Of a DNA stretch of 41,041 nucleotides, positions 4,390 to 38,527 are shown piece after piece. A program made the position numbers and the translations under genes. Within the stretch, counting starts at the first letter, position 1. The number at the start of each line of letters is the position of its first letter. The notes under the pieces were generated by a model, which was not told the origin of the DNA, did no database searches, and saw only the letters and a list, made by a program, of their open reading frames with translations. Source of the DNA: a virus; the IMG/VR virus record IMGVR_UViG_3300011189_000017, positions 1 to 41,041 of that record. The stretch is one strand, 5' to 3'.

Positions 4390-4403
4390 TATAAATAGAG
4401 GGT
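4390..4403 (+). promoter_or_regulatory. T4-late-like promoter box TATAAATAGAGGGT
   Basis: TATAAATA at 4390-4397 matches the T4-type late promoter consensus and is followed by GAGGGT. The same 14 bases occur at 25089-25102. It lies 11 bases before the ATG of the gene at 4414. Recognition by a phage late sigma factor is inferred. Confidence 0.5.
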
Positions 4404-4413
4404 AATAATAATT

Positions 4414-5136
4414 ATGAGTGATTCCATCGACCATAAGAAGCTGGTAGTTTCTGCTATCAAAAAAGCAACCACCAACAAAGATGTTATCTCCGTTGAGAGG
4501 TTCGCAGGATTTCTGGCTTTCTTTCTGGCCTTAGGAACGGTTTTTCGTCTTATAGAGGAAGAACAGGTTCCTCAAGGAAGGGAGAGTGAAGTTAAATCAC
4601 ATGTTCAGCGGGGAGTAAATTTTGCTAAACGAGAACGTGCCCAAATAGCAGAAGCAACCAAAGCGTATTTTGGGGACTATGCAGGTAAAATGCGGTTCCG
4701 GACTCTTTATCGTAAATTGCTTCGCGGTAAAAAGGTGTCGACCTTTATTATTAGACTAACAGATTTGATGGAGGCACTTCTCCCTCGTTTGATGCGAGAT
4801 ATGTCTACCGTCAGAGAAATCTTTTCGGGCAGATCTCTTATTACTATCCGTCAAATAGACAAAGCACTGGTAGAAGAGGGATCGTTAGCTCGACTGCATA
4901 AATTAGCTGCTATGTCCCCTGCCCCTGGATTGGCAAAAGAACACCAGTGGATCGTAAAAGCAGCTTCTATATTTGATGTAGGAATTTCCGAAGTTGAAGT
5001 GGTAGCTTCGATGGCGGGAGACGCAAAGGATCTGGCAACGGAACTACAGAAGATCAAAAACCGTTTGTCTTCTCTCGATCCTACCTCTAAAGACGCTGTT
5101 ACCCTAGAGTCTCGAAGACGTGTAAAGCCAACGTAG
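4414..5136 (+). CDS. Hypothetical helical protein
   Basis: This 240-residue protein is predominantly helical. A hydrophobic stretch, FAGFLAFFLALGTVF (about 32-46), could be a buried helix or a single membrane-associated segment. Basic helices follow (KLLRGKKVSTFIIRL), and the C-terminal region is Ala/Leu-rich. No catalytic motif is recognised. It sits directly downstream of a late-promoter-like box, which suggests late expression and perhaps a virion or assembly role. The 3' end overlaps an alternative frame that seems to continue the downstream helicase sequence, so the junction near 5090-5136 may be a recombination or deletion point. Confidence 0.6.
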   Translation: MSDSIDHKKLVVSAIKKATTNKDVISVERFAGFLAFFLALGTVFRLIEEEQVPQGRESEVKSHVQRGVNFAKRERAQIAEATKAYFGDYAGKMRFRTLYRKLLRGKKVSTFIIRLTDLMEALLPRLMRDMSTVREIFSGRSLITIRQIDKALVEEGSLARLHKLAAMSPAPGLAKEHQWIVKAASIFDVGISEVEVVASMAGDAKDLATELQKIKNRLSSLDPTSKDAVTLESRRRVKPT

Positions 5137-5165: not shown

Positions 5166-6380
5166 ATGGTATTGCCTACCATGCAAGATTGTTCTGAATA
5201 TACAGCTACAGTTATTAAGGACCAGATTGATAACGAAGAATTAGGAATGACGTATGATGATTTTGGAGTTGCCTGCAGAACTACCCGAGAACTTTTGTAT
5301 TTCACATCTGCACTTATCGAAAAAGGAATTCCTTTCCGAAGTAAAAAGCATCCTTTCAAGGGTCCTGTAATGAGAGGTCTAATTCCTTTGTTGGGAATTA
5401 TGAGCCCGGAGGAAAGGACAGACGAAGAAATCAATGAGGCGGTTATTCAAGGGGTTAAGAGTCCTGATTTTGGTCTTAGCCCTTATACCATGCGGGATAA
5501 ATTGGATAAACTTGCTACCGGCATGAATTATTATGAGTTCTTCGTAGAGAAGAAGGGGTATAGAAAAGTATACAGTGGCGGCAAATGGGGAGACAGGGCA
5601 AAAGCCTATGCTAAATTTCTCGAAAGTATTTACGGTCAAGCAGAAGATTTGGGACCAGAAGGCTCACTGGAAATTTTACTCAACTATGAAGGTCCTTTCG
5701 GATCTATGGTCGAGTCCATGATCGAGTCCGTTAAAAATGATCCTCAAGCTATCGAGACCATCCTTGATGAGAATTTAGATGCAGATGTTGCCAGCGATTC
5801 TATAATCAGGGATTACGCTCTACAACCCTTAGATCCTTTCCGAAGTGTTCTTGAACATTTTGATAGTGTTGATGAAGCTTTTAACTATGTACAGACAGTT
5901 ATTAAAAAATCAGAAGCCCTGTCTAAATCCACAAATCCTAGCGATCCTTCTTATAACGAACCCGCAGTATCTTTGGATACGGTTCACGGTTGGAAAGGTC
6001 TAGAAGCCAAACAAGTTTTTGTTCCTATGTATGAATCGGGTGCAGGAGGATTTCCTCATAATAGAAGCGCACAGGATGAAGATCTATTAGCTTCGGAAAG
6101 AAGACTGGCTTATGTTGCCATTACTAGGGGAGAAGATGAGGTTACAATTCTTAGACCTCAAATCAATCCTCTTTCGGAAAAGTTTCCAGTTACAAGAAGC
6201 AGGTTCGTTGATGAGGCTTGCATTCCAATTAAGGGTGAAAACTCAAAGACTTCTTCTGTTTCCAAAAGATCTAAACGAAGAATCCCCGATGATGTTCTAG
6301 AACATTTCATTAATGAGGATTATGACGAATTTTCCGAAGAACTTGAAATGCTAGAACAAGAAGCCGAAGGAGGCGAATAA
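5166..6380 (+). CDS. UvrD/PcrA-type helicase, C-terminal half only
   Basis: This 404-residue protein contains the second half of a superfamily 1A helicase. It has a motif IV region (VACRTTRELLYFTSALIEKGIPF, about 36-58), a 2B-like insertion, motif V (TVHGWKGLEAKQVFVP, about 272-287) and motif VI (RRLAYVAITRGEDEV, about 312-326). An acidic tail ends the protein. There is no Walker A (GxGKT), Walker B or Q motif, so the ATP-binding 1A/1B half is missing. The same frame is open about 80 bases upstream of the ATG and reads KANVDQKGEGRISE, plausible helicase sequence preceding motif IV. This points to a deletion or frameshift rather than a naturally short protein. It cannot be an active helicase alone unless the other half is supplied in trans. 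Confidence 0.75.
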   Translation: MVLPTMQDCSEYTATVIKDQIDNEELGMTYDDFGVACRTTRELLYFTSALIEKGIPFRSKKHPFKGPVMRGLIPLLGIMSPEERTDEEINEAVIQGVKSPDFGLSPYTMRDKLDKLATGMNYYEFFVEKKGYRKVYSGGKWGDRAKAYAKFLESIYGQAEDLGPEGSLEILLNYEGPFGSMVESMIESVKNDPQAIETILDENLDADVASDSIIRDYALQPLDPFRSVLEHFDSVDEAFNYVQTVIKKSEALSKSTNPSDPSYNEPAVSLDTVHGWKGLEAKQVFVPMYESGAGGFPHNRSAQDEDLLASERRLAYVAITRGEDEVTILRPQINPLSEKFPVTRSRFVDEACIPIKGENSKTSSVSKRSKRRIPDDVLEHFINEDYDEFSEELEMLEQEAEGGE

Positions 6381-23150: not shown

Positions 23151-24800
23151 ATGTCGAAAAAGATGTATTTTAAAGATGAAGCACTAAAACGTCTTCAAAG
23201 TGGAGTGGACGCAATCGCAAATGCAGTAAAAGTAACTTTGGGACCTAGAGGTCGAAATGTTACAATGAGCAAACATTTTGGCTCCCCACAGATCACCAAA
23301 GACGGTGTGTCGGTAGCCCGAGAAGTCGAATTTGATGATATGAGAAGTCTGGGGGCAGAGTCAATGAAAGCCGCCTCTATTAAGACCGCAGAGGAAGCTG
23401 GAGACGGTACCACCTCTTCTATGGTTATGGCACAGGCTATTTTTAGCGAAGCCCGTAGAGCCATAGCGGGGGGCATTCATCCCGTTTTCCTTAAAAGAGG
23501 ATTAGATGAGGCTCTAAAGCATTCCCTGGGGTTTGTACAGGATTTTTCAGTTCCCGTAGACTCCCTAGATGAGATCACCAAAGTAGCAGCCTTGGCAGGG
23601 AATGGAGACCAAGCACTTGGTGAACTTATTGCAGAAGCCATGGAAATGGTAGGGAAAGATGGAGTTATTTCCGTAGAGGAAAATCACTCACTAGAAACAT
23701 ATTTGGAGTTTTCCGAGGGTATGCAGTTAGATAGGGGTTATTTATCCCCGGATTTCATTCTTGATCCTGAAGCCACTTCGATTACTTTAGATAATCCGTT
23801 GGTGTTGCTCGCAGATGAAAGACTCAAAACAGATCAGGATATATTGCCTGCCCTTGAGTTGGCAGTAAATACTAACCGCCCTCTTATGATCATCGCACAT
23901 GATCTGGAAGATACAGCTTTTCAAACCTGTTTGATGAATCATCTGAATCGGAAGATCACTGTATGTATGGCAAAAGCTCCTAGAATTGGAGAAAAGAGAA
24001 CACAGATTTTAGAGAATTTGGCAACGCTTTGTGGCGCAGAAGTTGTATCTCCCCAAACAGGTAATACTCTCCAAAATCGTCAAGCTTCTGATATGCTGGG
24101 AGGATCGGATTCTATTACTATCACTAAGGACACTACTACCCTCGTTGGTGGTGCAGGTGAAAGTGATGTTGTGGAAGCTAAAATTAGGGAGCTTAGATCC
24201 CGAGCACAGACTGCGGGTTCGGAGCATGATAAAGAGTTCTATCAGCAGCAGATGTCTCAGCTTAGTGGAGGAATCGCTGTTATTCGAGTTGGTGCTGCCA
24301 CTGAACTTGAGTTGAAAGAGTATAAGTCTAGAGTAGAAGATTCTCTATCCGCTACTCAGGCTGCGGTAAGGGGTGGAATTGTTCCTGGAGGCGGCTCCAT
24401 TCTTCTTCAAGTGGCAGACTACCTGTCTTTTCTACTGGAAGATGATGATACAGATTTGGGTCTGGAGTCTATGGATGAAAGAAAAGGTTTTGAGACGCTG
24501 ATTAAAGCTCTTGAAAAACCTTTCTATCAGATCATGAAGAATGCAGGCATTGAACCCAATGGAGCTATCTATCGGTATAAAGAAGCCATTAAGAATGGTT
24601 CCGCGCCAAACCTGATTATGGATGCAAGGACTGGAGAGATTAGGGATGCTCTGGAAGCGGGAGTAATTGATCCTACTCTAGTGGTAGAGCAGGTCCTTAG
24701 AAACTCTGTGTCGGTAGCTTCGACACTGGCTACAGCTTCTTGTTTGGTAGTCAATTCCGATACCGAAGATCTGGAAGAAGATAACGATAGCAACCAGTGA
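23151..24800 (+). CDS. groEL: Phage-encoded chaperonin GroEL
   Basis: This 549-residue protein is a full-length group I chaperonin with a strong GAGGAG ribosome-binding site. Visible signatures are VKVTLGPRGRNV (about 27-38), ITKDGVSVA with the Asp52-type residue, AGDGTTSS (about 85-92) with the Asp87-type residue, VEDSLSATQAAV with the Asp398-type residue, and IVPGGGS (about 409-415). The ATPase residues therefore look intact. The C-terminus is acidic (DTEDLEEDNDSNQ) instead of the usual GGM repeats. The apical GYLSPDF has Asp where E. coli GroEL has Tyr203. No groES gene is seen in the window. It probably folds phage virion proteins in the host cytoplasm. Confidence 0.97.
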   Translation: MSKKMYFKDEALKRLQSGVDAIANAVKVTLGPRGRNVTMSKHFGSPQITKDGVSVAREVEFDDMRSLGAESMKAASIKTAEEAGDGTTSSMVMAQAIFSEARRAIAGGIHPVFLKRGLDEALKHSLGFVQDFSVPVDSLDEITKVAALAGNGDQALGELIAEAMEMVGKDGVISVEENHSLETYLEFSEGMQLDRGYLSPDFILDPEATSITLDNPLVLLADERLKTDQDILPALELAVNTNRPLMIIAHDLEDTAFQTCLMNHLNRKITVCMAKAPRIGEKRTQILENLATLCGAEVVSPQTGNTLQNRQASDMLGGSDSITITKDTTTLVGGAGESDVVEAKIRELRSRAQTAGSEHDKEFYQQQMSQLSGGIAVIRVGAATELELKEYKSRVEDSLSATQAAVRGGIVPGGGSILLQVADYLSFLLEDDDTDLGLESMDERKGFETLIKALEKPFYQIMKNAGIEPNGAIYRYKEAIKNGSAPNLIMDARTGEIRDALEAGVIDPTLVVEQVLRNSVSVASTLATASCLVVNSDTEDLEEDNDSNQ

Positions 24801-24808
24801 GTTAAGAA

Positions 24809-24867
24809 GATCAGGAGACAGAAGAATTAATAAGTGTCATACAAAACGCTCTGTCTCCCGATCTTTT
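24809..24867 (+). terminator. Large hairpin after groEL (terminator-like; hides a ribosome-binding site)
   Basis: GATC-A-GGAGACAGA (24809-24822) pairs with TCTGTCTCC-C-GATC (24850-24863), 13 pairs with one mismatch, followed by TTTT. The left arm contains the AGGAG that would serve the next gene, and the right arm encodes part of that gene (ALSPDLL). It could be a terminator or a translation-blocking hairpin. Confidence 0.6.
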
Positions 24868-25084
24868 AAAGCCTGAATATAGGGAAGAGAATAAAAACAA
24901 CCCTATGTTCGGGCACTGTTATATAGCCTCCGAAGCTCTTTTTCATGCTCTCGGGGGCTTTTATACGTCTTGGAGACCCGTAAGGGCTAGGGATCCTAAG
25001 GGGATTGTACACTGGTGGTTGGAGGATGAATCTGGGGCTATTCTTGACCTCACTAAGGATCAATATTTGTTAGAGATAATATAG
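24830..25084 (+). CDS. Small phage protein lacking a canonical start codon
   Basis: An open frame from about 24806 to TAG at 25084 reads ISVIQNALSPDLLKPEYRE, then NPMFGHCYIASEALFHALGG, then IVHWWLEDESGAILDLTKDQY. This matches the pattern of a common small phage protein (SPDLLxPxYR...GHCYxAxEALYHxLGG...HWW(F)L...G.xLDxTxxQY). No ATG, GTG or TTG occurs until the internal ATG at 24905, which would drop the conserved first block. AGGAG lies 9-12 nt before TTA (24827) or ATA (24830), so a non-canonical start, a start at 24905, or a decayed gene are all possible. The 3' end is short, suggesting truncation. Confidence 0.65.
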   Translation: MSVIQNALSPDLLKPEYREENKNNPMFGHCYIASEALFHALGGFYTSWRPVRARDPKGIVHWWLEDESGAILDLTKDQYLLEII

Positions 25085-25088
25085 TTTT

Positions 25089-25141
25089 TATAAATAGAGG
25101 GTTATAGCTGATAATTCCTTCTAAATTTATAGGGGCTATAA
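25089..25141 (+). promoter_or_regulatory. T4-late-like promoter box and leader hairpin
   Basis: TATAAATAGAGGGT (25089-25102) is identical to the box at 4390. Downstream, TTATAGC (25102-25108) can pair with GCTATAA (25135-25141), placing part of the AGGGG ribosome-binding site next to or inside a stem. This may tune translation of the gene at 25144. Confidence 0.5.
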
Positions 25142-25143
25142 TA

Positions 25144-26664: not shown

Positions 26665-27093
26665 CTAGATGTCGCTTTCCTTTACCTTGCGAAAGAATTT
26701 TTCAGCTCGTATGAGGTGCTTTATAGCCATTTTCATATTGGTTTCAAATACTTCCCGATAGGCCATATTCATTTCATCGCTAATTAGAATCTTAGCTTTC
26801 GGAAATGTAGAATTCTCAACTGCTCGGTCAATAAGACGATCCAAGCGTAATCTCATTTCCTTCCGTACAGAAGCAAATTGGGAAGGAAGTTTATCTTTTT
26901 CTATCTGACTAATGCGCAGGCTGATATCAAAAATAGCCTGATAGATCAGCTGAATCCCTTCGTCAGTCAAATCTGCTCTTAGCTCGTGTCGGTCCTCTTC
27001 AGTATCTCCCGCCTCTTTTTGAGCTTCCATCAGATCTTCCATGATGTTGGTAAGTTTTTCCCTGCGATCTTTGAGTTGTTGTAGGGTAGCCAT
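26665..27093 (-). CDS. Helical hypothetical protein from a strong divergent promoter
   Basis: This 142-residue, almost wholly helical protein has high Lys/Glu/Arg content. A predicted coiled-coil pair spans residues about 5-35 (LKDRREKLTNIMEDLMEAQKEA) and 45-75. Arg/Lys-rich helices follow (VRKEMRLRLDRLIDRA) and a basic end (RAEKFFRKVKE). AAAGGAG 5 nt before the start gives an excellent ribosome-binding site. It is read from a promoter at 27137-27165 that faces away from, and is nearly identical to, the promoter of the gene at 27241. Function is unknown; the strong, host-like promoter suggests early, abundant expression. Confidence 0.6.
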   Translation of the reverse strand: MATLQQLKDRREKLTNIMEDLMEAQKEAGDTEEDRHELRADLTDEGIQLIYQAIFDISLRISQIEKDKLPSQFASVRKEMRLRLDRLIDRAVENSTFPKAKILISDEMNMAYREVFETNMKMAIKHLIRAEKFFRKVKESDI

Positions 27094-27136
27094 CCTAACT
27101 CCTTTCCTTCTAGGGTTATTGTTAACCTTCTCACTC

Positions 27137-27165
27137 TATATACCCTGGTCTTCTCTCGATTATAA
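27137..27165 (-). promoter_or_regulatory. Sigma70-like promoter, copy 1 of the ACCAGGGTATATAG family
   Basis: On the minus strand TTATAA (27165-27160) is followed after 17 nt by TATATA (27142-27137), inside the conserved block ACCAGGGTATATAGAGTG. It drives the gene at 26665-27093. Confidence 0.65.
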
Positions 27166-27172
27166 ATAATAA

Positions 27173-27214
27173 TTGTAATTAAAAGGGAACCAGGGTATAT
27201 AGAGTGTAAGAGAT
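27173..27214 (+). promoter_or_regulatory. Sigma70-like promoter, copy 2 of the ACCAGGGTATATAG family
   Basis: TTGTAA (27173-27178), a 17-nt spacer and TATATA (27196-27201) lie within AACCAGGGTATATAGAGTG followed by TAAGAGA. It is divergent from copy 1 and drives the gene at 27241. The -10 boxes are 54 bases apart. Confidence 0.7.
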
Positions 27215-27240
27215 ACTTAACCCCTAATAAAGGAAATGAA

Positions 27241-27601: not shown

Positions 27602-27639
27602 TTGTAATTCTCTTAGAACCAGGGTATATAGGGTGTAAG
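27602..27639 (+). promoter_or_regulatory. Sigma70-like promoter, copy 3 of the ACCAGGGTATATAG family
   Basis: TTGTAA (27602-27607), a 17-nt spacer and TATATA (27625-27630) lie in AACCAGGGTATATAGGGTG followed by TAAGAGAG. It is nearly identical to copy 2 and drives the zinc-ribbon gene at 27682. Confidence 0.7.
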
Positions 27640-27681
27640 AGAGAACGAACAACTTAAACCCCCTGAACAAAGGAAGCAAAA

Positions 27682-37900: not shown

Positions 37901-38527
37901 ATGAAACCAGAATCCTTTGAAGTACAAGTCCACGGTAAGTTCGGAGTCCTCCCAGTCTGCATGGAAGAGGGAAGCGTAGGTTATGATATTGCATTGCCTC
38001 CTGATTTCGGCAACTTGGTTATGCCCTATAACTCCAGAAGAACCATAGATACGGGTATCGTCATCAAGCCTCCTATGAAGTGTCTTGTCCTTATTGTTCC
38101 CCGGTCCTCGTCTCGAAAGAAAGGTATCAGGATCTCAAATACGATAGGAGTAGTTGACCCTTCCTATTGCGGACAAGATGACAATCTCATTGTAGATCTG
38201 ACAAGGGAACCTAAGAAAAGTACCTTTGTAGGTAAAGTCTCCAAAGAGGATGTACCCAATAATAGAGATGCCTGCCAAGCCTATTGTACCCTGCATGATT
38301 TTGAGCCCCATCTCAAAAACCGAATGTTCCTACAGTCTTATTATGACCCTGACAAGAGAGAGTACCATATTTATGAAGAGGGTGAAGACGACCTAGTAGT
38401 CTATGGAAAAGGAGAGAGGTTTTGTCAGATCTTATTTCTCCCATATTATAAACCATCTTTATTGGAAGCCAAGTTGGAAGAATTTGGTATCGAAAATAGA
38501 GGCGGGTTCGGCAGTACCGGACAATAA
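37901..38527 (+). CDS. dut: dUTPase with a large insertion
   Basis: This 208-residue trimeric-type dUTPase shows all five motifs: GSVGYDI (about 25), PRSSSRKKGI (about 68), NTIGVVDPSYCGQDDNL (about 80-96), GERFCQILFLP (about 171) and RGGFGSTG at the C-terminus. It hydrolyses dUTP to dUMP and PPi, protecting phage DNA from uracil. Between motifs 3 and 4 there are about 75 residues, versus roughly 15-20 in E. coli Dut. The insertion includes a Cys-containing stretch (NNRDACQAYCTLHDFEPHLKNRMF) and an acidic loop. The Shine-Dalgarno is weak. Activity is probable because motif residues are present; the insertion's role is unknown. Confidence 0.85.
   Translation: MKPESFEVQVHGKFGVLPVCMEEGSVGYDIALPPDFGNLVMPYNSRRTIDTGIVIKPPMKCLVLIVPRSSSRKKGIRISNTIGVVDPSYCGQDDNLIVDLTREPKKSTFVGKVSKEDVPNNRDACQAYCTLHDFEPHLKNRMFLQSYYDPDKREYHIYEEGEDDLVVYGKGERFCQILFLPYYKPSLLEAKLEEFGIENRGGFGSTGQ

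Follow-up and report, generated by a model that had tools for sequence, protein, structure and literature searches.

Genes and features at the locus

The window is the whole stretch of DNA analysed here, the 41,041 nucleotides of a 41-kb record from an uncultured virus. The tail-sheath ORF has its nearest match in a 485-kb uncultured phage (38%), suggesting that the record is probably a fragment of a large phage genome. Searches with its YunG, GroEL, tail-sheath, AAA and DHH proteins and with DNA found no close relative. A tRNA search of the window was also negative. Behind the groEL TGA, frame 2 is open between a TAA at 24803-24805 and a TAG at 25082-25084, and positions 24806-25084 translate as EDQETEELISVIQNALSPDLLKPEYREENKNNPMFGHCYIASEALFHALGG...VHWWLEDESGAILDLTKDQYLLEII. 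The features of the locus are the following.

23151..24800, + strand: phage groEL, 549 aa, with its stop TGA at 24798-24800; matches PHROG 5725 chaperonin (E 1.5e-131) and Pfam Cpn60_TCP1 (E 1.1e-63)
24797..24799, + strand: GTG overlapping the groEL stop (GTGA), in the reading frame of the YunG-like ORF and 18 codons before the conserved Leu
24802..24822, + strand: 5' arm of a hairpin, containing the TAA and an AGGAG (24813-24817)
24803..24805, + strand: in-frame TAA in the sequence, codon 3 of the reading from GTG 24797
24806..25084, + strand: YunG-like core, residues 1-92, the open stretch in frame 2; matches PHROG 12251 (E 1.8e-25)
24827..24832, + strand: TTA and ATA, 9 and 12 nt behind the AGGAG; no other near-start codon has an at all plausible position
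24850..24870, + strand: 3' arm of the hairpin, encoding the family motif LSPDLLK
25085..25143, + strand: short gap at the place of the C-terminal block in relatives, with TATAAATAGAGGG from 25089; the same motif stands at 4390 before the ORF at 4414

Family and conservation of the core

A reading of the sequence alone had taken the frame for a recognisable small phage protein, and this is borne out by the PHROG 12251 match and by 39 phage records found with tblastn; 20 and 80 loci come from IMG/VR. The Pfam YunG profile (PF24585) scores 24.7 bits against the frame (E 2.8e-5), below its cut-off of 27 bits, and matches 32 of the 39 aligned PHROG 12251 members. NCBIfam gave no match to the frame protein, and a literature search on YunG found no paper on the protein. 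The copy in the window shares the family core (LTPDLL, NPMFGHC, HWW and DxTxxQY) but has neither a canonical start that could be used nor the PPYxxG...PSKR block at the C-terminus. Judged by its sequence, it is a homologous but truncated YunG-like copy and not a complete family member. The Caulobacter phages phiCbK and CcrRogue have YunG-like genes that are ~50% identical, with a start that likewise overlaps the stop of the preceding gene. In these phages, however, the gene adjoins DNA polymerase and not groEL, and both the start and the C-terminus are intact. In Myxococcus phage Mx1 (L025:2453-5222) and in a 735-kb phage (L026) a YunG-like domain lies inside a much longer open frame.

The core itself is intact. 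In a leave-one-out comparison over the 39 aligned sequences, 27 columns are conserved at 70% or more; the window copy departs at none of them and the other sequences at 1 to 8. All 12 invariant core residues are kept. The copy is the most consensus-like member examined, and its codon usage differs from that of the phage's genes by less than one standard deviation. By our calculation, 0 changes in 27 columns sets an upper limit of about 0.11 unconstrained changes per residue at 95%. Any loss is therefore recent, or the gene is still working.

In the alignment and the AlphaFold model of relative L036, a conserved Cys opens a helix, a His opens a strand and an Asp follows. This arrangement recalls the Cys-His-Asp of transglutaminase-like cysteine peptidases, LapG among them, but no match in a fold search of the PDB reaches significance, and LapG entries come out at E about 1. 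Among viral structure models the significant matches are to uncharacterised relatives only, with a predicted transglutaminase-like proteinase at E 0.2. A search by sequence for solved relatives found none. The product, if made, may be a small cysteine hydrolase.

The start region

The conserved Leu of the family corresponds to position 24851. Relatives begin 10 to 21 codons before it, or about 42-46 codons in some phage groups, and four of them (L010, L042, L093 and L109) have ATG or GTG at -18, the same place as GTG 24797. Stop/start overlaps are also frequent among the genes of this phage (6380, 7599, 10519, 10773, 35224 and 35583). GTG 24797 is thus probably the inherited start of the YunG-like gene, although by our estimate a GTG would coincide in frame with the groEL stop about once in 6 by chance. 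The sequence-only reading had reported no ATG, GTG or TTG before the conserved block. This holds within the open stretch, where the first such codon is ATG 24905, but the in-frame GTG upstream of the TAA was missed. The frame thus probably has an inherited start that is cut off by the TAA, and no other canonical start stands between the TAA and 24905. Recoding of this TAA was considered and rejected, because TAA is the commonest stop of the phage (27 of 48 ORFs) and thus an ordinary one. A frameshift from GTG 24834, in another frame, was considered as well and dropped: with a start near -6 the protein would be shorter than that of any relative, and there is no support for it.

A canonical start lies upstream of the conserved block in 91 of the 94 distinct relatives. 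Frames broken in related phages had been named as a refuting result, and here the picture is mixed. Three relatives are exceptions: AUU is the probable start of L064, the codon just ahead of the conserved Leu in L180 (-1) is an in-frame TAA, and the sequence of L229 diverges too far for its start to be assigned. The TAA in L180 lies near a contig end with the rest of the gene intact, and is a nonsense mutation or a contig error.

Translation from ATG 24905, the first ATG of the frame, would give a 59-residue peptide. There is no SD-like core at ordinary spacing upstream of it, and the peptide would drop the N-terminal helices with the conserved LSPDLL that all relatives keep. We regard this start as highly improbable.

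Loss of the C-terminal block

All distinct relatives carry the PPYxxG...PSKR block, 64 of 64 in the first survey and 94 of 94 in the wider one, but the window lacks it. From the NPMFGHC motif to the end, every distinct relative has at least 90 residues, compared with 60 here. A search downstream and through the rest of the window found no remnant of the block. For relative L036, AlphaFold (pLDDT 93-97) places the block, as a strand and a helix, within the folded body, which argues for a broken gene in the window. The earlier reading had seen the anomaly as a missing start codon; the TAA does cut off the probable start, but the loss of this block had escaped notice.

An error in the contig, from base calling or a mixture of strains, could also be considered, with the phage itself carrying a normal gene. 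The intact core is consistent with this, and the isolated in-frame TAA near a contig end in L180 is what such errors would give. However, one error does not account for both the TAA and a motif-bearing spacer in place of the C-terminus, so that the two separate lesions make a single sequencing error a harder explanation, and no other broken gene was noticed nearby. We consider a contig error very unlikely.

The hairpin

The hairpin pairs 18 of 21 arm positions across a 27-nt loop and is beyond chance. When the whole window was shuffled 100 times with dinucleotides kept, a single shuffle held an inverted repeat as good (0.01 per shuffle), and the folding z-score is -4.3; two other places in the window reach the same 18 of 21. 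By energy alone it is among the best 0.4% of 70-nt windows, yet it stands behind about 15 other places. The earlier description of a hairpin that overlaps the frame, hides the AGGAG and encodes part of the protein is correct: the AGGAG is paired, and the 3' arm encodes LSPDLLK. As this motif is conserved, the 3' arm is likely the older of the two. One may speculate that an inverted local duplication creating the 5' arm would explain the hairpin and the lost start together. Further copies of the arm were sought and none was found, and an Rfam search gave no match. The hairpin makes a poor terminator behind groEL. It falls short of an intrinsic terminator, which has a GC-rich stem, a short loop and then a U-run, in having a loop of 27 nt and a UUUU that lies in the stem or before AAAG; a terminator scan with a loop limit of 8 nt did not list it.

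Initiation at AUA or UUA

As had been reported, TTA 24827 and ATA 24830 follow the AGGAG at 24813-24817 at distances of 9 and 12 nt. A working short YunG-like gene could start at AUA 24830 (UUA 24827 less likely), gated by the hairpin and expressed at a low level, with ribosomes finishing groEL opening the hairpin and the low output tied to GroEL synthesis. Several observations are consistent with this. The groEL stop ends 1 nt before the 5' arm of a hairpin that is beyond chance and pairs the AGGAG, and an SD core at a spacing of 5-10 nt is expected by chance at 8% of positions. The core is fully conserved, and the AlphaFold model of the 92-residue frame has a pLDDT of 92.6.

Genes that naturally start with AUA occur in S. 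aureus and B. subtilis; ccpN, citZ and infC are examples (PMC13009471). Relative to AUG, the S. aureus starts AUA (ccpN, citZ) and AUU (cvfC1) work at about 10-30% (PMC13009471). A CUG start gives 0.86% of AUG (PMC11497404). UUA was not among the natural starts reported in the start-codon literature that we searched. As in infC, ccpN, citZ and cvfC1 of S. aureus, the codon in the window stands behind an SD-like site (PMC13009471). However, extended SD motifs are present at infC, ccpN and cvfC1 (PMC13009471), and reporter translation was measured for ccpN, citZ and cvfC1, whereas the window has a plain AGGAG with AUA 12 nt away. This spacing is at the edge of the range in this phage (2-12 nt, mostly 5-9), and the site is hidden. 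The two codons lie at -8 (TTA) and -7 (ATA), while the shortest relative seen, L049, begins at -10, so that the protein would be 2-3 residues shorter at its N-terminus. Moreover, the missing C-terminal block is left without explanation.

The YunG-like gene of L064 (L064:3968-4360) is also without ATG, GTG or TTG. It has GGAG 8 nt before ATT 3980, overlapping the TAG of DNA polymerase, and in relative L052 an ATG stands at -14, the same position. From its sequence L064 very probably starts at AUU, which counts in favour of initiation at AUA or UUA in the window and suggests value in a survey of non-AUG starts in phages; collection DNA would be enough to begin.

AUA initiation is possible in principle, with no positive evidence at this locus. 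The earlier suggestions of AUA/UUA initiation and of an RNA-controlled gene are less supported than a remnant, and we consider a working short gene unlikely. The full form of the proposal is quite unlikely: a phage gene translated only from AUA (or UUA), with its ribosome-binding site hidden in a coding hairpin and opened by ribosomes finishing groEL, so that the amount of a small YunG-type protein would track GroEL synthesis. If the gene is translated, it would give a phage example of hairpin-controlled initiation at a non-canonical codon, and genes of this kind would escape gene finders.

Probable recent breakage of the gene

The best explanation, which we think reasonably probable, is that a YunG-like gene formerly coupled to groEL has lost both ends, and so recently that its middle part is still undecayed. 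The ancestral gene would have been read directly behind groEL from the GTG overlapping its stop. With the in-frame TAA, translation would end after two codons, and recombination or deletion would have replaced the C-terminal block by a short spacer with a promoter-like motif for the next gene. The remaining core would be unexpressed or nearly so, with no product made, while intact in appearance. The hairpin may be a scar of local inverted duplication, a poor groEL terminator or a structure that further blocks initiation. A GTG at the start position of several relatives, followed by a TAA, supports this explanation.

Some points count against a broken gene. No relaxed selection is seen in the core, and a still-working gene would look alike. 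The AGGAG and the hairpin covering it could be read as regulation. An intact sister copy in a close relative was not found by protein and DNA searches. Of the three options raised by the sequence-only reading, a decaying remnant is the best supported, given the TAA at codon 3 and the missing C-terminal block, but "decaying" is too strong for the gene body, where every family-conserved residue is kept. If the gene is only broken, the locus captures a large phage in the course of losing a gene, with both ends lost and the core intact.

Promoter-like motifs and other features of the window

The motif TATAAATA occurs 8 times in the window, compared with 2.6 expected. We take it to resemble a T4-type late promoter, and treat this as a lead only. 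A second motif, ACCAGGGTATATAGRGTG, stands before three genes, at 27093 (- strand), 27241 (+ strand) and 27682 (+ strand), with its copies at 27100-27215 and 27610-27640. A long inverted repeat at 27132-27206 consists of two divergent copies of it. It is a probable phage promoter. The helicase ORF (5166-6380) and the dUTPase ORF (37901-38527) align to their PHROG profiles over more residues than the profiles have positions, suggesting a possible insertion in these ORFs. Endonuclease-like ORFs, homing or HNH, are present at 1626, 10773 and 31506.
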